Positions 52,552 through 64,000 of a stretch of DNA of 64,000 nt are shown piece after piece. The stretch comes from Oscillospiraceae bacterium (GTDB lineage Bacteria > Bacillota > Clostridia > Oscillospirales > Oscillospiraceae): positions 372,001 to 436,000 of the forward strand of contig AP025582.1 in assembly GCA_022846075.1 (NCBI GenBank). The letters are read 5' to 3'. The first letter of the stretch is position 1. Every line of letters starts with the position of its first letter. Position numbers and translations under genes: made by a program. The notes under the pieces are model-generated. The model was not told the DNA's origin and did no database searches. It was given only the letters and a program-made list of their open reading frames with translations.

Positions 52552-54177
52552 TCAGCCCTCTCTGCCGAAGCACTCCAGCACCGAGTTGGCGATGCTCTCC
52601 GCGTCCAGGATGTGGGTCTCCAGCTGGGCCAGGCAGCCCCGGTCGCCGGAGAGAAGCAGTTCATAGATCCGCCGGTGCTTCTCGAAAAACTCCATGGCGT
52701 ACCGCTCGCTGTAACCGGTGAGGGTGTTGAAATTCATCAGGGTATAAAAGATCTCGGCGTTGCTCTCCCAGGCGTTGGAGAGGAAGATGTTCTCCGCCGA
52801 GGCCACCAGGGCCCGGTGGAAGCGCACGTCCAGATCGTACCAGTCCACCGTCTCGGGGGAGGAGGCGCAGCAGGACTCGATGATGCCAAGGACCTCCGCC
52901 AGCTTGGGATAGACGGAGCCGCTCTTCTCCAGGGCCAGCTCCAGGGCCCGGTTTTCAATCATCCAGCGGAAGTCGTAGAGATTCTTGACCTGCCGCTCGG
53001 AAAACTCCACCACCTCCCGGCGGCCGTTGGGGTGGGTGATGATAAGGCCCTCGCCGGAGAGGATCTGCAAAGCGGTGCGGATGGAGCTGCGGCTGGCGCC
53101 GTACTGCTCCGCCAGGTTTTTTTCCACCAGCTTGTCGCCCGCCTTGTATTTGCGCTTGACGATGTCGATGCGGATGAGGCTGGCGATTTTTTTGGGCGTG
53201 GCCACGGGACTCTTTTCGGCGGAGGAGAGGTCCCCCTCGCCGTCCGCTCCGCCCTTTCCGGCGTCCCGGTCCCGCTCCATCTGCTTGATGCGGGCGTTCA
53301 GCCGGGCGTTGATGGGGGTGGGGACCCCCAGCTTTTCCCCCAGGCGGCATACGTAGTCCCCCAGGATGTTCGTCTCCAGGGGCCGGCCGGTCCAGTAGTC
53401 CTGGAGCATGGAGGAGCGGCCGTCGGGGGAGAGGGCGGCCAGGGTCCGTTCCCACTGGGTGATGGTGTCCTCGTCCAGCGGTACGCCGCAGCGGTTGGCC
53501 AGGGCGATCACCTCCCGCTGGGCGCTGCGCATGAGCTCCATGGCCTCCCGGTTCTCCCGGAATTGGCCGTAGGTCAGCTGATAGACCGTGCTGGTCTGGT
53601 TGAACCCTGCGTTTACCAGGAATTTGGACCACATGTGATAGAGGATGTCCGGAGCCCACTGGGCGGGGACGGAGCAGCAGCGAAAGAATTCCTCCAGCCG
53701 TTGGACGGCGGGGCTGGACTGGCCGTCCTTTTCCCCAAAGAGAAGGGTGCCCGGGCTCTGACAGCGGATTTTATGGCCTTCCCGGTTAGTGTCCGCCCCC
53801 ACCACGGTGGAGCAGAGCACGTGGCCTGGGCCGAAGGCCTGGGTCAGCGCCTCCTCGCTGGTCATGCCGTTGAGGAGGGCCAGGATGAGGGTATCCTCCC
53901 CCACCAGGGGGGCCATATCCGAAATGACCTTGTCTAGATCATAGGACTTGACGGTCACCAGGATGAGGTCCACCGGCCCGCCCTCCAGGTCACGGCAGGA
54001 TTGGTAATCGATGTTCAGGGGCCGGTCGTTCAGGATTACCGGCTCCCGTTGGCTCCGTGCGGGGTCCCGGACGATGCCGTAAAGGGTGACGGAGGGGTCC
54101 CCCCGCCGGATCTGGTCGGCGTAACAGGCCCCCAGGGCGCCCAGGCCGATGACGGCCACACGCTGAATGGGTTTCAT
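52552..54177 (-). CDS. Fusion of a ketopantoate-reductase-like dehydrogenase with a GntR/FCD transcriptional regulator
   Basis: 541 residues in one frame. Residues 1-301 form a PanE/ApbA-type 2-hydroxy/2-keto acid dehydrogenase: Rossmann VAVIGLGALGACYAD, LVTVKSYDLD, LLNGMTSEEAL and KFLVNAGFNQT with the conserved Lys and Asn. A linker (about 302-328) leads to a GntR winged helix (AGDKLVEKNLAEQYGASRSS, about 345-365) and an FCD ligand-binding domain with the histidines of its metal site (RFHRALVASAEN, FFEKHRRIYELL, LETHILDAES). No internal start with a ribosome binding site is seen at the junction (the only candidate ATG, 53280, lacks one). AGGAGG eight bases before 54177 fixes the start. It is divergent from the TRAP operon it probably controls. 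Confidence 0.85.
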   Translation of the reverse strand: MKPIQRVAVIGLGALGACYADQIRRGDPSVTLYGIVRDPARSQREPVILNDRPLNIDYQSCRDLEGGPVDLILVTVKSYDLDKVISDMAPLVGEDTLILALLNGMTSEEALTQAFGPGHVLCSTVVGADTNREGHKIRCQSPGTLLFGEKDGQSSPAVQRLEEFFRCCSVPAQWAPDILYHMWSKFLVNAGFNQTSTVYQLTYGQFRENREAMELMRSAQREVIALANRCGVPLDEDTITQWERTLAALSPDGRSSMLQDYWTGRPLETNILGDYVCRLGEKLGVPTPINARLNARIKQMERDRDAGKGGADGEGDLSSAEKSPVATPKKIASLIRIDIVKRKYKAGDKLVEKNLAEQYGASRSSIRTALQILSGEGLIITHPNGRREVVEFSERQVKNLYDFRWMIENRALELALEKSGSVYPKLAEVLGIIESCCASSPETVDWYDLDVRFHRALVASAENIFLSNAWESNAEIFYTLMNFNTLTGYSERYAMEFFEKHRRIYELLLSGDRGCLAQLETHILDAESIANSVLECFGREG

Positions 54178-54205: not shown

Positions 54206-54230
54206 ATTATATCAAATAAATGTCGACAAT
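54206..54230 (-). promoter_or_regulatory. Promoter -10 and operator O1 of the fusion regulator gene
   Basis: On the minus strand TATAAT lies at 54211-54206, with a weak -35 (TGGAAT). The spacer contains TGTCGACA (54221-54228). AAATAAATGTCGACA is identical to the left part of operator O2. Binding here would block the regulator's own promoter. Confidence 0.6.
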
Positions 54231-54338
54231 TCCAGCTTTCCTGACCTTCGGACTGAGAAGCAGGATAGACGTGTGCAAAATAGACAGATTTCGACAACCT
54301 GTTTTGTACTGCTTGACTAAATGAGAGGACAATTATAA

Positions 54339-54356
54339 ATAAATGTCGACATTTAT
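54339..54356. promoter_or_regulatory. Operator O2, perfect 18-bp palindrome
   Basis: ATAAATGTCGACATTTAT, centred on GTCGAC and ending 9 bp before the -35 element of the TRAP operon promoter. Symmetry and length suit a GntR/FCD dimer. It shares 15 bases with O1. Confidence 0.7.
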
Positions 54357-54365
54357 AAAAAAGTA

Positions 54366-54394: not shown

Positions 54395-54461
54395 GACGGT
54401 AAGGAAGCCGTCCGAAGGGCGGCAAGAGAGAAATCCATGAAACATGAAAGGGGTATTTGAA

Positions 54462-55514
54462 ATGAAAAAGAGAGCGTTTCTTGCGTCTGTCCTGACCCTG
54501 AGCATGGCCTTCAGCCTGGCCGCCTGCGGCGGCGGGGACAAGGACAAAGGAACGGCCACGCCTCCGCCGGCCGCCGAGAGCCAGCCCCAGGGCAGTGAGC
54601 CCGCCGGCGATGTGGAGACCGTCTATCTGAAGGCCAGCCACGTCTTTGCCGAGGGCCATCCCGTCTACCAGGCCTTCCAGGAGTCCGCCGACCTGCTGTA
54701 CGAAAAGACCAACGGCCGCTACGGCCTGACCATCTATCCCAACGGCACCTACGCCAACTACTCCGACTCCATCACCGCCTGCCAGATGGGCGATCTGGAC
54801 ATCGCCTGCCTGGATTCCGCCGCCGACTGGCTGGAGTCCGCCGGCGTGCTGCTGGCCCCCTACTGCTTCCAGAGCTACGACCACTGGGCTGCCTATAAGG
54901 CCAGCGACCTGTGTACCGAGATGCGCCAGGCCATCGGCGACGCCGTGGGCGGCGTGGTGCAGCTGAACATGTACAACTTCGGCTTCCGCAACCTGACGGC
55001 CAACAAAGAGATCCGCAATCTGGACGACATTTCCGGCCTGACCCTGCGGTGCGTCAACTTCGCCCCCTACTCCACCCTGGCCGACGTGTTCAACGTGCCC
55101 ATCACCTCCATCCCCATCGAGGAGGTGTACATGAGCCTCCAGACCGGCCTGGCCGACTGTGAGGAGAACCCCCTGACCCAGATCGTCACCATGAAGTTCT
55201 ACGAGGTACAGAAGTACCTGATGAAGACCCAGCACATGCTGGCCGTCTCCTCCACCATCATCAACCAGGACTTGTGGAACTCCCTCTCCGATGAGGACAA
55301 GGCCATCTTCCAGGAGGTCTTCACCCGCCAGGGGGACCGTATCGACGAGCTGACGGTGGAAAATGAGAACGCCCTCATCCAGACCTGCGTGGACAACGGC
55401 ATGACCGTCATCGACGACGTGGACACCACCCCCTTCCGTGAGAACGCGGCCAAGGTGGTGGAGAGCTATCCCGCCTGGAAGGATTGGTACGATCAGATCC
55501 AGGCCATGGCCTGA
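54462..55514 (+). CDS. dctP: TRAP transporter substrate-binding lipoprotein (DctP family)
   Basis: 350 residues. A lipoprotein signal (MKKRAFLASVLTLSMAFSLA then AC, cysteine near residue 25) and a Pro/Glu-rich tether precede the DctP fold (HVFAEGHPVYQAFQESADLL, GLTLRCVNFAPYSTLADVFN). In this family a conserved Arg (here in LTLRCVN) salt-bridges a carboxylate, so the ligand is probably an organic or sugar acid. The ATG at 54462 has AAAGGGG upstream; one six codons earlier is less likely. It is the first gene of the operon, with an intraoperon hairpin after it. Confidence 0.9.
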   Translation: MKKRAFLASVLTLSMAFSLAACGGGDKDKGTATPPPAAESQPQGSEPAGDVETVYLKASHVFAEGHPVYQAFQESADLLYEKTNGRYGLTIYPNGTYANYSDSITACQMGDLDIACLDSAADWLESAGVLLAPYCFQSYDHWAAYKASDLCTEMRQAIGDAVGGVVQLNMYNFGFRNLTANKEIRNLDDISGLTLRCVNFAPYSTLADVFNVPITSIPIEEVYMSLQTGLADCEENPLTQIVTMKFYEVQKYLMKTQHMLAVSSTIINQDLWNSLSDEDKAIFQEVFTRQGDRIDELTVENENALIQTCVDNGMTVIDDVDTTPFRENAAKVVESYPAWKDWYDQIQAMA

Positions 55515-55677: not shown

Positions 55678-56196
55678 ATGGAACGGTTTTATCACGGATT
55701 TTCCGCGGTGAACAGCGCGCTGAAGAAGGCGGAGATGTTTTTGGGCTGTTTGTCTCTGGGCGTGCTGTTCCTCATCATGATCTTTAACGCCGCCCTGCGG
55801 TATCTCATGGGCAGCGGCCTCAACTGGTCGGACGAGCTCAACGGCTTCTTGTTCGTCTGGTTCGGGTTCCTGGCGGCCGCCTACGCTATGAGCACGGACT
55901 CCCACCTGCGCATCACCGCCTTCGTGGGGCTCTTTCCCCCGGTGGTGCGCTACGCCCTCAAGCAGATCATGAACATCCTCATGATCGCCATGTTCCTCCT
56001 CTATATGGGGCCGCTGGCCAACCTGATGGCGACGCTGCCCATCTCCAACGTCCTGCGCTTCCCCATGAAGTGGGTCTATCTGATCCTGCCCATCGGCTTC
56101 GGCCTGATGTGCGTACATATCCTGTTCAACATGCTCCAGGATACCATGGAGCTGATCCGCGGCAAAAAGGAGCCGGGAGAGGGGGAAAAGGCATGA
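55678..56196 (+). CDS. dctQ: TRAP transporter small permease (DctQ family)
   Basis: 172 residues with four membrane segments (LGVLFLIMIFNAALRYLMGS; DELNGFLFVWFGFLAAAYAM, a DctQ signature). It forms the membrane complex with DctM. GAAGGGCAG lies upstream of the ATG at 55678. The stop overlaps the dctM start by four bases. Confidence 0.9.
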   Translation: MERFYHGFSAVNSALKKAEMFLGCLSLGVLFLIMIFNAALRYLMGSGLNWSDELNGFLFVWFGFLAAAYAMSTDSHLRITAFVGLFPPVVRYALKQIMNILMIAMFLLYMGPLANLMATLPISNVLRFPMKWVYLILPIGFGLMCVHILFNMLQDTMELIRGKKEPGEGEKA

Positions 56197-57488
56197 GCCC
56201 GTTGATGGTGTTCCTCATCAGCTTTGTGGTGCTGTTCCTGCTGGGCATGCCCATCGCCGGCGCCATGATCACTTCCTCCTTCCTCTACGCCTTCGGCGCG
56301 GGCATCAGTCTCTCGGTCATGGGGACCCGGATGTTCACGGGGCTCAATAACTTCGCCCTGATCGCCATCCCCCTGTTCATCCTCACCGCCGAGGTGATGA
56401 ACCGCACCTCGGTGGCCGACCGCATCTTCGGCTTCTGCCGGGATCTGGTGGGCTACATCCCCGGCGGCATGGGCCACGTGAACATCGCCACCTCCATCAT
56501 CTTCGCCGGCATGTCCGGCTCCGCCGTGGCCGACGCAGGCGGCATCGGCAATCTGGCCTACCAGGCCATGGTGGACGAGGGCTTTGACGAGGAGTTCAGC
56601 GCATGCACCACCATCGCCTCCTCCACCGTGGGCCCCATCATCCCCCCCAGCATTCCGGCGGTGGTGTACGCTATGGTGGCCAATGTGTCCGTGGGCAAGC
56701 TCCTCTTCGGCGGCATTGTCCCCGGATTCTTCATGGGCTTCGTTATGATGGCCTACGTCTTCGTCTGGTCCAAGCGCCACAACGGCCCCAAGCTGGAGTG
56801 GCAGGGCTGGCGGTACTACCTGGTGCACCTGCTCCACGCCTTCATCTCCTGCCTGCTGCCCCTGCTGACCCCGGCCATCCTGCTGGGCGGCATCTACCTG
56901 GGCGTGGTCACAACCACCGAGGCCGCCGCCGTGGCCGTCCTCTACTCCCTCATCCTGGGCGTGGTCATCTATAAGACCATGGGGTTCAAGGATCTGACCG
57001 CCAGCCTGAAGAGCGTCTTTATCGCCAGCGGCTCCGTGCTCCTCATCATCCCCGCCTCCAAGTGCTTCAGCTTCGTGCTGACGGCGGAAAGCCTTCAGGA
57101 TAAGCTCTACCAGGCATTTTCCAGCTTTGCCGGGGACAGCAAGTTTTTGACTGCCCTGTGCGTTACGGTGCTGTTCCTCATCCTGGGCTGCCTGAGCGAT
57201 CCCAACGTGAACATCATGGTCTTTGTGCCCATGGTGCTTCCCCTGCTCAACGCCGCCGGATTCGACCCCGTCCACGCGGGCATCTGCATCATCGTCATTG
57301 CCATGATCGGCAACATCACCCCGCCGGTGGGGGTGGTGCTGATGACCACCTGCAGCCTGCAGCACTTGAACATCGAGCGGGTCAGTAAGGCACTGCTGCC
57401 ATGGATCGCGGTCCTGATGGGAGAAGTGGTCATCCTCTGGCTCTGCGAGCCCATTGTGACCTTTGTCCCCAATCTGCTGATGGGGTGA
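56193..57488 (+). CDS. dctM: TRAP transporter large permease (DctM family)
   Basis: 431 residues, about 12 membrane segments. IPLFILTAEVMNRTSVADRI, GMSGSAVADAGGIGNLAYQA, SSTVGPIIPPSIPAVVYAM and NITPPVGVVLMTTCSLQ are DctM signatures. It drives sodium- or proton-coupled uptake of the ligand held by DctP. Coupled to dctQ by ATGA; GGGGGAAAAGG lies just upstream. Confidence 0.93.
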   Translation: MSPLMVFLISFVVLFLLGMPIAGAMITSSFLYAFGAGISLSVMGTRMFTGLNNFALIAIPLFILTAEVMNRTSVADRIFGFCRDLVGYIPGGMGHVNIATSIIFAGMSGSAVADAGGIGNLAYQAMVDEGFDEEFSACTTIASSTVGPIIPPSIPAVVYAMVANVSVGKLLFGGIVPGFFMGFVMMAYVFVWSKRHNGPKLEWQGWRYYLVHLLHAFISCLLPLLTPAILLGGIYLGVVTTTEAAAVAVLYSLILGVVIYKTMGFKDLTASLKSVFIASGSVLLIIPASKCFSFVLTAESLQDKLYQAFSSFAGDSKFLTALCVTVLFLILGCLSDPNVNIMVFVPMVLPLLNAAGFDPVHAGICIIVIAMIGNITPPVGVVLMTTCSLQHLNIERVSKALLPWIAVLMGEVVILWLCEPIVTFVPNLLMG

Positions 57489-57520: not shown

Positions 57521-58879
57521 ATGAGTAAAAACATGATCGCCCTGGACTTGGGCAGCACCTTCATCAAAGCCGCCGTCTTTGACGTGGAGCGGCAGAAAGT
57601 GCTTTTTTCCGAAAAGTGCCACACGCCGGACAAACGTCCCAATGAGGACCCGGCGGTATTCGAGAACGACGCCGAGGCCTTCGTGGACGCGGTAAAGACC
57701 ATGATCCGCCGGTGCGCCCGGGAGGTGCCCCAGCTCCGGGGGCTCCTGCTCTCCACCCAGCAGCACGGCTGTGTGCTCTGCCACCCCCAGCTGGAGCGGG
57801 ACACCTACATTTCCTGGCAGGACACCCGGTGCCTGGGGCTGGACCCTGGGACGGGAAAGAGCTATTTGGAGGAGCTGCAAGAGCTGCTCCCCCCCCAGGT
57901 CATGGAGAATACCGGCGTTCCGGTGAAGCCGGCCCTGGCCCTTTGCAACCTGTACGCCCTGTTTCAGCAGGGGGGGCTGGAGCGCCGGGAGGAGACCCGG
58001 GTCTATACCCTGGGGGCCTATATCATCGAGCGGCTCACCGGCAATAACGTCTGCCACATCACCAACGCCGCCCCCATGGGCTTTGCGAATATCCTGGACC
58101 ACACCTGGCGCGGGGACATCCTGGCCCGGACTGGGCTGGACTTCATCCGCCTGCCCCGGATCACCGCCGGGCTGGAGTGCTGCGGCGTCTATACCGACGG
58201 GGACCTCCGGCTGGAGGTCTACCCCGACGTGGGGGATGTGCAGACCAGTGTCTATGGAACGGGGGCCAGGTCGGGGGATATGATCGTCAACATCGCCACC
58301 AGCGGCCAGCTCATCTATATCAGCGACGAGTATGTCCCCGGCGATTACGAGATCCGCCCCTATTACGACGGCAACTACTGCAACGTCATCTCCCGGATGC
58401 CCGGCGGGCGCAACTTCGATGTGCAGATCGACTACATCCGGGACGTGGGAGAAAAGGTCTTTGGCCAGAGCTTGAGCCGTGAGGCGGTGTGGCGTCAGGT
58501 GCAGGCGCGGATGACCGGGCCGGAGGAGGACGGCGGGCTGGCGGTGGACTGCAGCTTCTATGAGCTGCCCGACCGGCTGGCCGACGGGGCCATCTCCCAT
58601 ATCAGCCACGTCAACCTGACCCTGGAGCACGTCATCGCCGCCACGGCCCAGGACTTCGGCCGCCAGTACCGCCGGTTTGCCGGGACCCTGTGCGACTTTT
58701 CTAAATTTTCCGGCACCCTCTACCTGTCCGGGGGCGCCATTCTGAAAAACCCCATCCTGCGCCAGGCGGTCACCGGCGCCATGGGGGCGGAGCGGACGGT
58801 GGCCGCCTCGGCGGACGAGGTCTATGGAGGCATGTTTAAGCTGGCGCAAAAATGTGTCTGCGGGAGGGAGTGCGCATGA
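57521..58879 (+). CDS. FGGY-family carbohydrate kinase
   Basis: 452 residues. ALDLGSTFIKAAVFDVERQ is the first phosphate loop, LLLSTQQHGCVL and YISWQDTRC match the substrate region of xylulokinase/sedoheptulokinase-like members, and LYLSGGAILKNPILRQAVTG is the C-terminal adenosine motif. It phosphorylates a sugar, polyol or sugar acid with ATP. GAGGAGACGAG lies before the ATG. The neighbouring HpcH/HpaI aldolase suggests that the phosphorylated intermediate is then cleaved. The substrate cannot be assigned. Confidence 0.85.
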   Translation: MSKNMIALDLGSTFIKAAVFDVERQKVLFSEKCHTPDKRPNEDPAVFENDAEAFVDAVKTMIRRCAREVPQLRGLLLSTQQHGCVLCHPQLERDTYISWQDTRCLGLDPGTGKSYLEELQELLPPQVMENTGVPVKPALALCNLYALFQQGGLERREETRVYTLGAYIIERLTGNNVCHITNAAPMGFANILDHTWRGDILARTGLDFIRLPRITAGLECCGVYTDGDLRLEVYPDVGDVQTSVYGTGARSGDMIVNIATSGQLIYISDEYVPGDYEIRPYYDGNYCNVISRMPGGRNFDVQIDYIRDVGEKVFGQSLSREAVWRQVQARMTGPEEDGGLAVDCSFYELPDRLADGAISHISHVNLTLEHVIAATAQDFGRQYRRFAGTLCDFSKFSGTLYLSGGAILKNPILRQAVTGAMGAERTVAASADEVYGGMFKLAQKCVCGRECA

Positions 58880-59637
58880 AGATGAAGGAGACGATCCACA
58901 GCGGGGAAATGGTCCTGGGGGCCTTTTTGTCGGAGATCCCGGCCCCTAACCTGACCCGGCTCATGAAGGCCTCGGGGCTGGATTTCGTCATTGTGGACTG
59001 CGAGCACGGTTACTTTGATTATTCCCAGGTGGCGGCCCTGGCCGCCGTGGCCAACGGCATCGGCTTCCCCCTGGTGGTCCGGGTGCCCGGGATCAGCCGG
59101 GAGTGCGTCCAAAAATACCTGGACGCGGGGGTGGACGGCCTGCTGGTCCCCATGCTGGAGACCCGGCGGCAGGCCGAGGACCTGGTGCGCTATGGGAAAT
59201 ACGCCCCCGAGGGGGCCAGGGGCATCTCCACCATGCGGCCCCACAGCGACTATGACCCGGGCAGGCTCACCGAGTATACGGCCAAGGCCAACCGGCGCAC
59301 CCTGTTCTTTGCCCAGATCGAGACCCGGACCGGTGTGGAGAACGCCGCCGATATCGCGGCGGTCCCCGGCCTGGACGGACTTTTCGTGGGCCCCAACGAT
59401 CTGGCCTGCGACCTTGGCTGCACCGGAAATTTTGACACCCCGGAGATGGAGGCGTCCATTGAGCGCGTGGTGGAGGCTGGCCGCAAGGCGGGCAAGCCCA
59501 CCGGCATCATCGCCTCCAGCCCCGCCTTCCTGCGCCGCTGGCACGAAAAGGGCATGACCATGTTCAGCTGCGACAGCGAGCTGGGGCTCCTGAAAAAGGG
59601 CATCCAGTCCATGGCCCGGGACGTGCGGGGGGCGTGA
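58876..59637 (+). CDS. HpcH/HpaI family aldolase
   Basis: 253 residues. The class II pyruvate-aldolase signatures are complete: FVIVDCEHGYFDYSQ, RVPGISREC, FAQIETRTGVENAADI (metal-binding Glu) and DGLFVGPNDLACDLG (metal-binding Asp). Relatives cleave 2-keto-3-deoxy or 4-hydroxy-2-oxo acids to pyruvate plus an aldehyde. The start overlaps the kinase stop. With the kinase and TRAP uptake it forms an acid-sugar breakdown route of unknown substrate. Confidence 0.88.
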   Translation: MKMKETIHSGEMVLGAFLSEIPAPNLTRLMKASGLDFVIVDCEHGYFDYSQVAALAAVANGIGFPLVVRVPGISRECVQKYLDAGVDGLLVPMLETRRQAEDLVRYGKYAPEGARGISTMRPHSDYDPGRLTEYTAKANRRTLFFAQIETRTGVENAADIAAVPGLDGLFVGPNDLACDLGCTGNFDTPEMEASIERVVEAGRKAGKPTGIIASSPAFLRRWHEKGMTMFSCDSELGLLKKGIQSMARDVRGA

Positions 59638-59644
59638 GCCCCTC

Positions 59645-60568
59645 ATGTGGGAAGTGATATGGAGGGCGGGCTCGTTCCTGCTGGTGATCTGCGCCGGATA
59701 CCTGCTCCGGCGGCTGGGCATTTTCGGGCCCAGGGAATATGACGTGCTTCTGCGGGTGGTGATGAACCTCACCATCCCGGCGGCCATCATCATCAGCTTC
59801 GCGGATTTCCGGATGGACCTGTCCCTGCTGGGGGTGGCCCTGCTGGGCCTGGGTCTGAACGTGCTGATGATGGCCCTGGCGGCGGCGGTGACCCGGAACC
59901 GGGACCGGAATACCCGGATCCTGCACCTGATGAACCTTTGCGGCTACAACGTGGGCTGCTTTGCCCTGCCCTTTCTCCAGGGCTTCGTGGGCCCCTACGG
60001 GGTGGCGCTGGCCTGCCTCTTTGACGTGGGCAATTCCCTGGTGGCCACCGGGGGCGGCTACGCCGTGGCCGAAAGCCTGCTCCGGGAGGGGGAGCGCCGC
60101 TCCTTTTCCCTGTGGGACACGCTGAAAAAGCTCCTTCGGGTGGTGCCCTTCGTTACCTACCTCTGCCTGATCGTCTATACGGCGGCGGGGCTCCGGGTGC
60201 CCGGTGCGGTGGTGACGCTTCTCACCCCCATGGCCAACGCCAACGCCTTCGCCGCCATGCTGATGATCGGCCTCATGGTGGATTTCCGCATGGAGCGGCG
60301 GGAGCGGGGCACCGTCCTGCGGGTGGTGGGCCTGCGGGGCGGGCTGAGCCTTCTCCTGGCGGCGGGACTCTATTTCCTCCTGCCGGTGGGGGAGGAGACC
60401 CGGCGGGTATTGGCCATCCTGGCCCTCTCGCCCATCTCCATGCTCTCCTCGGGATTTACGGCCCAGCTGGGCGGGCCCGTGGGGACCTCGGCGGCCATCA
60501 ACTCCATCTACGCGGTGTTCAGCGTGGCGGCCATGTCGGTGCTGGTGGTCCTCTTTGGGATCTCCTGA
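59645..60568 (+). CDS. AEC family transporter (auxin efflux carrier-like permease)
   Basis: 307 residues with about ten hydrophobic segments. RLGIFGPREYDVLLRVVMNL and LTIPAAIIISFADFRMDLSL at the N terminus and LCGYNVGCFALPFLQGFVGP follow the AEC pattern. Bacterial members carry malate, malonate or similar acids. It may export a waste product or be a second carrier for the pathway's substrate. 7 bp after the aldolase; last gene of the operon before a bidirectional terminator. Confidence 0.82.
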   Translation: MWEVIWRAGSFLLVICAGYLLRRLGIFGPREYDVLLRVVMNLTIPAAIIISFADFRMDLSLLGVALLGLGLNVLMMALAAAVTRNRDRNTRILHLMNLCGYNVGCFALPFLQGFVGPYGVALACLFDVGNSLVATGGGYAVAESLLREGERRSFSLWDTLKKLLRVVPFVTYLCLIVYTAAGLRVPGAVVTLLTPMANANAFAAMLMIGLMVDFRMERRERGTVLRVVGLRGGLSLLLAAGLYFLLPVGEETRRVLAILALSPISMLSSGFTAQLGGPVGTSAAINSIYAVFSVAAMSVLVVLFGIS

Positions 60569-60645: not shown

Positions 60646-61785
60646 TCATCCGCAGAGGGTGAGGCCGTGACGGGCGATGGCCCGGGCGGCCTCCAGCCCC
60701 ATGGCCCGCCAGCGGGCCCACCAGCCCTCGGGCAACGGCCGGTGGTCCAGCCAGAGGCCGAAAGCCCCGGCCAGCATGTCCCGGCATTCGGCCTGGAAAA
60801 AGATCCCCGACTTTTCACACACGCCCCCCTTGGTGGCAAGCTGGGCGGTCATCCGGTCCAGCTCGGGCCGGGAGAGGAGGCAGAGGGTCACCAGGTAGGC
60901 CTCAGCCCGGTAGGCCCGGACCACGTGCCCGGCGTCGTCGGGGAGGCCGGCCTCCGGGGCGAAGTCGCATACCCCCTTCAGCCAGGTGACGGCGCAGCCG
61001 GCCACGAATTGGGCGCAGTGGGGGTCCAGGCTGTCCATGGAGCAGGGGACCAGCGCCCGGGGCAGGTCGTCCCAGGTCCGGCGCAGGGCGGCGCGCATGA
61101 CGCTGGCGGCCTCCTGATGGCCGCCGGGGAGCCCACGGGCGGAGAGCATGTCCGCGAACAGGTAGCACATGTCGTAGTAGCAGTGGGCGGCGTTGCGCAT
61201 ACCCAGATAGGGGACGGAGTCCTCCTCCCGCACCTCGATGGTGTTGACCAGGGGGGAGAGGAAATCGTAGAGCCGGGCCCGGTTGGCCTCCGGCCAGGGG
61301 TGGGCGTCGCTGAAGGTGATGAAATTGGCCTCCAGATAGGCCGAGGAAAGGCCCGCCACGGAGTAGAACATATTGGGCAGGACCTTGACGGCGTTGACGT
61401 CGGGGCCCAGCCGCTCATAGAAATAATCCACGCTGGGGGTGGGGGCGAAGCTGAGGATGTCGGGCAGGACGCCGCCCCTCTCCCACTGTTCCCGGCAGTA
61501 GGGGGCCAGAGAGTCGGTGACCACCGGAGGGATCTGCCTGGGGGGCGGGCAGACCAGCACCAGGTCCGGTTCCATCCGGCGCAGGGCATCCAGGGTGCCG
61601 CCCACGGCGACCTCACAGTCAAAGTCCCGCTCCAGCGCCGCCAATCCGTTGGGAGTGGCCTTATTTAAAAGGACATTTCCGCGCAGGACTCCACCCGCCG
61701 CCCGCTGGTAGCAAATGCGCATGTAGGTGCCGATGTGTCCCGTGCCGATGACCACGAGCTTGAGTGCTCCGCAAGGTTTTATCAT
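60646..61785 (-). CDS. NAD(P)-binding ProC-like protein
   Basis: 379 residues, longer than pyrroline-5-carboxylate reductase (about 270). The N-terminal fold KLVVIGTGHIGTYMRICYQR binds a dinucleotide; PDLVLVCPPPRQIPPVV and VKVLPNMFYSVAGLSSAYLE recall the ProC/ketol-acid-type layout, and LATKGGVCEKSGIFF parallels the PGG-T motif of ProC dimerisation domains. The reaction is not identifiable. GGGAGG precedes the ATG. It is convergent with the AEC operon and lies 51 bp after the SLH protein gene. Confidence 0.7.
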   Translation of the reverse strand: MIKPCGALKLVVIGTGHIGTYMRICYQRAAGGVLRGNVLLNKATPNGLAALERDFDCEVAVGGTLDALRRMEPDLVLVCPPPRQIPPVVTDSLAPYCREQWERGGVLPDILSFAPTPSVDYFYERLGPDVNAVKVLPNMFYSVAGLSSAYLEANFITFSDAHPWPEANRARLYDFLSPLVNTIEVREEDSVPYLGMRNAAHCYYDMCYLFADMLSARGLPGGHQEAASVMRAALRRTWDDLPRALVPCSMDSLDPHCAQFVAGCAVTWLKGVCDFAPEAGLPDDAGHVVRAYRAEAYLVTLCLLSRPELDRMTAQLATKGGVCEKSGIFFQAECRDMLAGAFGLWLDHRPLPEGWWARWRAMGLEAARAIARHGLTLCG

Positions 61786-61825: not shown

Positions 61826-61846
61826 AAAGACGGGGCTTATGCCCCG
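61826..61846 (-). terminator. Short terminator overlapping the stop of the SLH protein gene
   Basis: On the minus strand CGGGGC-ATAA-GCCCCG followed by TCTTTAT; the loop contains the TAA stop codon. The stem is only 6 bp, so termination may be partial. Confidence 0.45.
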
Positions 61847-64000
61847 GAGGGCATCAGGGAGATCAAACGCAGAAGGACCACGGAGACCTCGGCCCGGGTG
61901 GCGTTGGCCTGGGGCCGCAGCGTGCCGTCGGGATAGCCGCCCAGAAGGTCCTGTTCCACCGTCCAGGACATGGCATCCCGGGCCCAGGCGTCGATTTCAG
62001 CGGCGTCGGTGTGGGCCTGGAGTCGCTCCGGGTCGGCCTGGGGGGCCAGCCCGGCCAGCTTGGCGTACTGGTACAGCATGACCGCCATCTGCTCCCGGGT
62101 CACCAGGTTTTCCGGGGAGAAGCCGCTGTCCGTTCCCGTCACGATCTGAGAATCGGCGGCCCAGGCCACCGCCCCGGTGTACCATGTGTCCGCCGGGACG
62201 TCGGCGAAGGCGGAGTCCGCCTTGGTTGCCGGCTGGCCCGCCAGCCGGTAAAGAACGGTGACCATCATGGAGCGGGTCATGCCCCCGTCGGGGGCGAAGG
62301 TGTCCTCGCTGAGGCCGTTGAAGAGGCCCCGCTCCACCACGGCGCGAATGCTGTCGGCGGCCCAGTGGGAGGACACGTCGGTCAGCTTGGCGAAGATTTG
62401 GGCGTTGGTGGATTCGGCGGTGGCCGTGTCGGGCGCCGGCTCCGGGGTCTGCGGGGCCGCGTCCGGCTTGGCTTCCGGCTTGGGGGAGGGGGAGCCGCCG
62501 CCTCCGCCACCACCGCCGCCCCCGCCGATGCTGCCGGGGGCGTTGGCGGCCGGCAGTTTGGCGATGGTTTTGGAGATCGTGAGTTCGGCTGTCTCGCCGC
62601 TGTCCCGGGCCAGGGCGGCGGGCGCGCCGTTCTGTGCCAGCAGGATCGTGCCGGAGATGCTGCCCAGGGCGGAGGCGGTGGCGGGCGTCTTGGTAAAGCC
62701 GGCCCCCTCTTTCCAGGCTGCGGTCAGGCGGGGGTCGGTCAGACAGGCCTTGACTCCGTTCAAAATGTCATCGGCGGTGGTGTCGTTGGTAACGGTCAGC
62801 CCGTCCAGCCAGGTCTGGGCGGCGGCCTTGGCCTGGGCGGGGCTCTGGATCTTGTTCAGCGTAATATCCACGTCGGTTCGGACGGGCGGGATGCGGATGA
62901 CGTCCTTCCCCTCGGGGGAATCCAGAGGGGGAGCGGTGCCGTAGACCGCGTCCAGATAGCCCGGGGCCGTGGCCCGGACCTGATAGACCCCCGCGGGGAC
63001 CATCCAGCCGTAAGCCCCGTCCGCGCCTGTGGTCTGGGGGTTGACCTGCAAGTGGCTGTTGGCGTCCCAGGGGGTGTCAAACCATTTGCCGTTGGCCTCG
63101 TCCCACTGATAGAGGGTGACGGAAGCCCCTGCTATGGGCTGGCCGGACTGGTCATAGATGACGCCCGAGGGGTCGATGAGGACCGTGACCTGGGCGATGA
63201 CGAATTGGTAGACCTCCTCCTGCGCCGTCACCGTGGCGATGACCTGCTTGACGCCCGTGGTGGACCAGCCGGAGAGGGTGGCGGTGTAGTAGCCTTTTTC
63301 GTTCTTGACCGCCTGCACGACGATGCCGCCGAAGTGGAAGGCCACGCTGGGCGGGGGAGTGCCCTCCTCCGGGTCCGGGAGGCTCCCATCCTTGAATTTT
63401 ACAAAGAGGGTGAAGGGATTGCCGATCAGCCTCGCGTTGGTCCAGGCGGTGAAGGTGGGGACGCCCACCTCCGGGTTTTTCTCGATCAGATTGCTCCACC
63501 CGTTGTTGACGATGACATGGTCGATGACGGGATAGGCGTCCCGGCTGACGACGGTAGCGGGCTCGGAACAGTAGGTTTTTCCGGAGCGGGTGGCTTGGAG
63601 GCGGAAGTCGAAGGTGCCGGAAGTTTGGAGCTTAAGCATGGCGGTATACCAGGAGTCCGACTGCTTGATCGCGGTATAGAACATGCTGGCGCCGGCCGTC
63701 TGCCAGCCGGAGTCATCGGGTGTGCCCTCCTCCGGGTGGCTGCGGTACTGGATGTCCAGTTTCGCGTTGGGTACGGTCTCTCCGTAGACGCCGAAGGGCT
63801 CACCGGCCTTGATGGCGGTGGGGAGGTTGATGGTGGCCCGCAGGATGCGCACGGTGAAGACGTCGACCTGCGTGCGCTCGCCGCCCAGGGGGGTGAGGTA
63901 GGCCTTTGCCGTCACGCTGTCGGTGGCGTCGCTGGACAGGCGGAAGGAGACGGACAGCTCCAGCTGTTCGTCCCGGCCCAACGCCTGGTCCAGGGTGAGG
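61837..64000 (-). CDS. Large SLH-anchored surface protein, C-terminal part (5' end beyond window)
   Basis: About 720 residues are visible and the frame runs open past base 64000. From the N side: several beta-sandwich stretches (for example IKAGEPFGVYGETVPNAKLD), a carboxypeptidase-regulatory-like domain (GQPIAGASVTLYQWDEANGK and DGAYGWMVPAGVYQVRATAP), a helical segment, a run of ten glycines with a Pro/Lys-rich linker, and three SLH repeats (LTDVSSHWAADSIRAVVERG; FADVPADTWYTGAVAWAADS; IDAWARDAMSWTVEQDLLGG). SLH repeats bind secondary cell-wall polymer, so this is a wall-bound extracellular protein; signal peptide and any enzymatic domain would lie outside the window. Confidence 0.85.
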   Translation of the reverse strand, partial: LTLDQALGRDEQLELSVSFRLSSDATDSVTAKAYLTPLGGERTQVDVFTVRILRATINLPTAIKAGEPFGVYGETVPNAKLDIQYRSHPEEGTPDDSGWQTAGASMFYTAIKQSDSWYTAMLKLQTSGTFDFRLQATRSGKTYCSEPATVVSRDAYPVIDHVIVNNGWSNLIEKNPEVGVPTFTAWTNARLIGNPFTLFVKFKDGSLPDPEEGTPPPSVAFHFGGIVVQAVKNEKGYYTATLSGWSTTGVKQVIATVTAQEEVYQFVIAQVTVLIDPSGVIYDQSGQPIAGASVTLYQWDEANGKWFDTPWDANSHLQVNPQTTGADGAYGWMVPAGVYQVRATAPGYLDAVYGTAPPLDSPEGKDVIRIPPVRTDVDITLNKIQSPAQAKAAAQTWLDGLTVTNDTTADDILNGVKACLTDPRLTAAWKEGAGFTKTPATASALGSISGTILLAQNGAPAALARDSGETAELTISKTIAKLPAANAPGSIGGGGGGGGGGGSPSPKPEAKPDAAPQTPEPAPDTATAESTNAQIFAKLTDVSSHWAADSIRAVVERGLFNGLSEDTFAPDGGMTRSMMVTVLYRLAGQPATKADSAFADVPADTWYTGAVAWAADSQIVTGTDSGFSPENLVTREQMAVMLYQYAKLAGLAPQADPERLQAHTDAAEIDAWARDAMSWTVEQDLLGGYPDGTLRPQANATRAEVSVVLLRLISLMPSGA

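Follow-up and report, generated by a model that had tools for sequence, protein, structure and literature searches.

How a PanE-type dehydrogenase comes to share a reading frame with a transcriptional regulator, and what such a protein might do, is the question raised by one gene in the 64,000-nucleotide stretch of Oscillospiraceae DNA analysed here (the window). At positions 52552-54177 on the minus strand lies a single uninterrupted frame of 541 aa, whose ATG start is preceded by a good ribosome site (AAAAAGGAGG); an ORF call of 606 aa is merely an in-frame TTG extension upstream of that ATG. Pfam matches to ApbA (residues 7-151, 2.9e-21), ApbA_C (177-301, 4e-29), GntR (329-385, 1.5e-13) and FCD (400-519, 1.8e-12) all exceeded the curated gathering cut-offs, so that the joining of a PanE dehydrogenase to a GntR/FCD regulator, as reported in the preliminary description, is real. 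The linker, given there as 27 residues, measured about 24. A complete fusion with 71% identity was found in a second genome of the same genus (G013), an uncultured Pseudoflavonifractor MAG (stretch L061, CANSYW010000016.1). The window's own genome (G000) is 98% complete on one contig, and G013 is 78% complete. The gene and its parts are as follows.

52552..54177, minus strand: fusion gene, 541 aa, in the order PanE reductase, linker, GntR, FCD
53269..54177, minus strand: PanE/ApbA ketopantoate-reductase-type domain, aa 1-303 (Pfam, residue alignment, structure model)
53197..53268, minus strand: linker, aa 304-327 (25% identical between the two fusions, dN/dS about 1, low pLDDT)
53008..53196, minus strand: GntR winged-helix DNA-binding domain, aa 328-390 (89% identical to L061)
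52555..53007, minus strand: FCD effector domain, aa 391-541 (candidate metal ligands D450, H454, H501, H522)

The regulator half has the order of the FadR/FCD subfamily, winged helix then FCD, but departs from the norm of that subfamily (an N-terminal winged helix in a protein of roughly 220-240 aa) in that a 303-residue enzyme precedes the helix. The C-terminal PLP aminotransferase-like domain that is the hallmark of MocR regulators had no Pfam match in the fusion protein. The regulator sequence becomes conserved again, in both fusions, at a GTG valine codon where the linker ends (codon 325; window 53203-53205, minus strand), which may once have been the start codon of a separate regulator gene. 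Internal initiation at the linker as the source of a separate regulator was not supported, as this GTG lacks a properly spaced ribosome site in either species.

Full-length fusions were confined to these two species in samples of 16 genomes from the genus, 400 from the family, 394 from the order, 371 from the class and 398 from the phylum, which overlap and in which weak matches and long open frames were Pfam-checked in part. A pattern scan of 84,980 species genomes, with a reach of close relatives only, returned the same two, and none was found in the viral contigs searched. Two long open frames (L084 and L127) considered as further fusions carried PanE only by Pfam. The nearest standalone PanE proteins were about 40% identical to the fused domain; in the regions examined beside them there was no convincing GntR/FCD gene (two weak matches, E 3e-4 and 7e-4), and their varied gene neighbours were uninformative on substrate. 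In a tree, the fused PanE domains group together with full support, and the stem leading to them is long (branch of 1.25). The preliminary description took separate genes in close relatives as the sign of a local fusion error; the sole close relative is also fused. Its authors knew of no such regulator, and we likewise found none in the open literature, a coverage that most subscription journals fall outside; the pairing is apparently rare and undescribed.

Transcribed divergently from the fusion gene in both genomes are genes for a TRAP transporter, a kinase, an aldolase and a permease (68-89% identity), a linkage that the preliminary description proposed to look for and that is present in both species carrying the fusion.

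54444..55514, plus strand: DctP, TRAP solute-binding protein (80% identical in L061)
55678..56196, plus strand: DctQ, TRAP small permease (71% identical in L061)
56193..57488, plus strand: DctM, TRAP large permease (89% identical in L061)
57521..58879, plus strand: FGGY-type kinase, only FGGY_N recognised (78% identical in L061)
58876..59637, plus strand: HpcH/HpaI class II aldolase (78% identical in L061)
59645..60568, plus strand: Mem_trans (auxin-efflux-carrier type, AEC) permease, last gene of the conserved block (68% identical in L061)

The block is flanked by ribosomal protein genes (rplQ side) in the window, and in L061 by genes for pyruvate carboxylase, a 2-hydroxyacid dehydrogenase and an acyl-CoA dehydrogenase. 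Because the flanking genes differ, the block, fusion included, behaves as a movable unit, and it appears to have been inherited or transferred as such with the fused gene as part of it; a search for near DNA matches on plasmids found none. Pfam and family profiles recognised no dehydrogenase among the other genes of the block. The C-terminal half of the FGGY-type kinase (57521-58879, plus strand) went unrecognised by Pfam, and matches to this protein at E<=1e-40 occurred in 3 of the 400 family genomes, the window's genome included. When the same protein was used to seek an orthologous operon lacking the fusion, it led to just a 29% relative, with no similar operon.

The region between the fusion gene and dctP contains the candidate control elements listed here.

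54341..54354, no strand assigned: candidate operator AAATGTCGACATTT, kept in L061 and matching the FadR-subfamily consensus GTMKAC
54218..54230, no strand assigned: second candidate operator AAATGTCGACAAT, near the fusion gene, absent from L061
54366..54394, plus strand: predicted sigma-70 promoter of the TRAP operon, TTGACA-17-TACAAT
54332..54359, minus strand: predicted promoter of the fusion gene, TTTATA-16-TATAAT, with the conserved candidate operator in its spacer

The longest conserved element of this region is AAATAAATGTCGACATTT, and the FadR-subfamily palindrome AAATGTCGACA(A/T)T occurs only here in each genome. Whole-genome scans for the 13-mer operator pattern AAATGTCGACAWT returned only the two sites of this intergenic region in G000 and only the syntenic site in G013; the reversed-pattern control gave 0 matches, and composition predicts 0.03 per 3.2 Mb. 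The candidate operator fits the GTMKAC consensus with the 2-nt GT..AC spacing of GntR, UxuR and HypR (PMC4494728), and a palindromic GT..AC element near target genes is thus, at the motif level, a FadR/FCD-subfamily trait present at this locus. Its position, just upstream of the predicted dctP -35 box and between the predicted -35 and -10 boxes of the fusion gene, suggests autorepression together with control of the TRAP operon. The operon may be activated or repressed: a site upstream of the dctP -35 box would suit an activator equally well, such as the FCD regulator CitO, which activates its operon (PMC4746285), and the term 'repressor' used in the preliminary description is unproven.

Both halves of the protein had been described as intact, and the residues bear this out. 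The PanE half passes TIGR00745 (196.9 bits against a cut-off of 141.35) and retains the cofactor motif G11xG13xxG16 with R37 and K77, and the catalytic residues N103, K185, N189, N193, S256 and E268. The GxGxxG motif, R31, K72, N98, K176, N180, N184, S244 and E256 of Escherichia coli MG1655 PanE, the active-site and NADPH positions of that enzyme, are all kept in both fusions; across 28 PanE-family rows the catalytic residues are invariant, as is nearly all of the combined catalytic and cofactor set. In the FCD half, D450, H454, H501 and H522 align with the metal site of TM0439, whose ligands include H134, H174 and H196 (PMC7674646), so that the required Asp/Asn and three His are present. The PanE half is thus probably an active NADPH-type 2-oxo/2-hydroxy-acid oxidoreductase, and the likely ligand of the predicted metal site in the FCD half is a 2-hydroxy or 2-oxo carboxylic acid.

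A vitamin-synthesis role for the enzyme was ruled out. Neither panB nor panC was found in G000 or G013 by a search that recovered the E. coli and B. subtilis controls, and the fusion is the only ApbA_C (PanE-family) protein in either genome; the enzyme half therefore does not serve pantothenate synthesis, although the absence from G013 counts less because that MAG is 78% complete. Both genomes are predicted to be pantothenate auxotrophs.

On balance, we consider it probable that the fusion serves a small, movable catabolic block both as regulator and as enzyme: a TRAP-operon regulator that carries its own 2-oxo/2-hydroxy-acid oxidoreductase. The GntR/FCD half would bind AAATGTCGACATTT between the divergent promoters, controlling both the TRAP-kinase-aldolase operon and its own gene, with the FCD metal site sensing a 2-hydroxy or 2-oxo carboxylic acid. 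The PanE half would supply a dehydrogenase step otherwise missing from the block, between the hydroxy acid that is taken up and the 2-oxo acid on which the HpcH/HpaI aldolase acts. One chain would thereby join the regulator to an enzyme for its ligand or for its ligand's partner. Enzymes of the PanE family convert 2-oxo to 2-hydroxy acids and back, carboxylic acids are the typical ligands of FCD domains, and the substrates that HpcH/HpaI aldolases cleave are 2-oxo acids; these family properties, and a block with no other recognised dehydrogenase, make this the most economical reading, although the pathway could draw on a dehydrogenase encoded elsewhere in the genome. We infer from the sequence that the protein binds DNA and is active as an enzyme, and likewise its substrate, its ligand and any coupling of its halves. 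The preliminary description suggested that the dehydrogenase domain makes, removes or senses the regulator's ligand, or that NAD(P)H state feeds into regulation; either may be so. Tentatively, the coupling may go further: PanE may interconvert the very acid pair sensed by FCD, with NADPH state and flux setting the local inducer and hence operon expression, a possible but doubtful refinement. If true, and as far as our searches show, the protein would be without precedent among GntR/FCD regulators in containing an enzyme for the ligand it senses.

Selection on the two halves bears on an unlikely alternative, in which the PanE half is a sensor only, reporting NADPH and/or ketoacid state to GntR/FCD with catalysis lost or incidental. 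Compared pairwise, the two fusions gave dN/dS values of 0.33 in the PanE half and 0.99 in the 24-residue linker, against 0.12 in GntR and 0.15 in FCD, indicating that both domains are under selection and that the linker sequence is free. The PanE half therefore changes at two to three times the rate of the regulator half, which may reflect relaxed or altered enzyme function and, with the long stem branch, is what a sensor might show; the aminotransferase-fold domains of MocR regulators are a precedent for enzyme-fold sensors (PMC5320631, PMC6677901). However, the catalytic residues, beyond those that bind cofactor, are all kept in both fusions, where a pure sensor usually loses some, and the FCD half already has what looks like an intact ligand pocket.

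The structure models, built from alignments that left out rows from plasmid records, are consistent with two folded halves. AlphaFold2 gave the PanE half a pLDDT mostly >90 and the linker mostly <50, and the regulator half, modelled alone with its own alignment, formed a confident FCD fold (score 84). Because merely two rows cover the regulator in the full-length model, that half was poorly predicted there, and the domain arrangement is unreadable from it. PanE and FCD were aligned separately, since a joint alignment of PanE-only and FCD-only rows misaligned. The nearest solved folds to the PanE half were 3hwr and further ketopantoate reductases, among them D-mandelate dehydrogenases of the PanE family; the nearest solved structure to the regulator half was TM0439 (3fms), with DhdR (9jpj) also among the FCD-fold matches.

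An unconstrained linker modelled at low confidence would equally be expected had neighbouring genes of the same pathway been joined neutrally, the halves working independently through a flexible tether with co-expression as the sole benefit. We regard this as quite improbable. It gains from the possible former start codon at the GTG, and from two Cupriavidus megaplasmids (L066:3632-5573 and L067:3794-5606) on which a PanE-like gene is followed on the same strand by a separate GntR/FCD gene, in the order of the fusion, such that the pair can also exist as neighbours. Those genes are distant (about 29% identical) and not a direct ancestor of the fusion, however, and neutral joining leaves unexplained why the fusion was retained across a divergence to 71% identity and a change of genomic place. 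That the frame is an assembly or sequencing artefact or a pseudogene, two genes joined by a local frameshift, has a negligible chance, because full-length recurrence of the identical layout in one other species, an independent genome, excludes a local error, the frame has no stops and both halves are under purifying selection.

A regulator carrying its own oxidoreductase would have relatives in kind among known systems. PutA, a proline catabolic enzyme with a ribbon-helix-helix domain, likewise holds enzyme and regulator of one pathway in a single chain, but its domains are unrelated. MocR/PdxR/GabR regulators, which show that GntR helices accept enzyme-type partners, also join the winged helix to an enzyme-type domain; theirs is aminotransferase-like, C-terminal to the helix and without FCD, whereas the fusion has an N-terminal Rossmann/PanE enzyme as well as FCD. 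The FadR-type regulators TM0439, DgoR and CitO share with it the two regulator domains, the metal-ligand positions and the GT..AC operator type, but have no enzyme domain and an N-terminal winged helix. PanE and PanE-family D-mandelate dehydrogenases (3wfi, 5x20, 8wl1) share fold, cofactor motif and the catalytic Lys/Asn/Ser/Glu; unlike them, the enzyme is here joined to a DNA-binding protein, and it occurs in genomes without the pantothenate pathway (no panB, no panC). Closest in logic is DhdR/D2HGDH of Achromobacter denitrificans (PMC8651671), an FCD-fold GntR regulator co-transcribed with the 2-hydroxy-acid dehydrogenase of its effector, yet those are separate proteins with a different dehydrogenase, whereas the fusion is a single chain, its enzyme belongs to the PanE family and its gene adjoins a TRAP operon. 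Enzyme-regulator fusions and separate pairs are already known, and the PanE-GntR/FCD combination appears to be new. FCD regulators are numerous, and what they bind is often guessed from the genes nearby; with a likely ligand-converting enzyme in the same chain, the ligand, the substrate of the enzyme and the pathway could be identified at the same time. Were the halves coupled, the protein would offer compact, natural redox- or flux-gated transcription and a possible biosensor template.

Two further genes lie beyond the block in the window. The first (60646-61785, minus strand) adjoins it, lies outside the conserved block in L061, and encodes a 379-aa Rossmann-like protein with no Pfam match above cut-off (F420_oxidored only at E 0.015). 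The second (61837-63981, minus strand) encodes a large protein with a glycine run and, by eye only, C-terminal S-layer-homology-like repeats.
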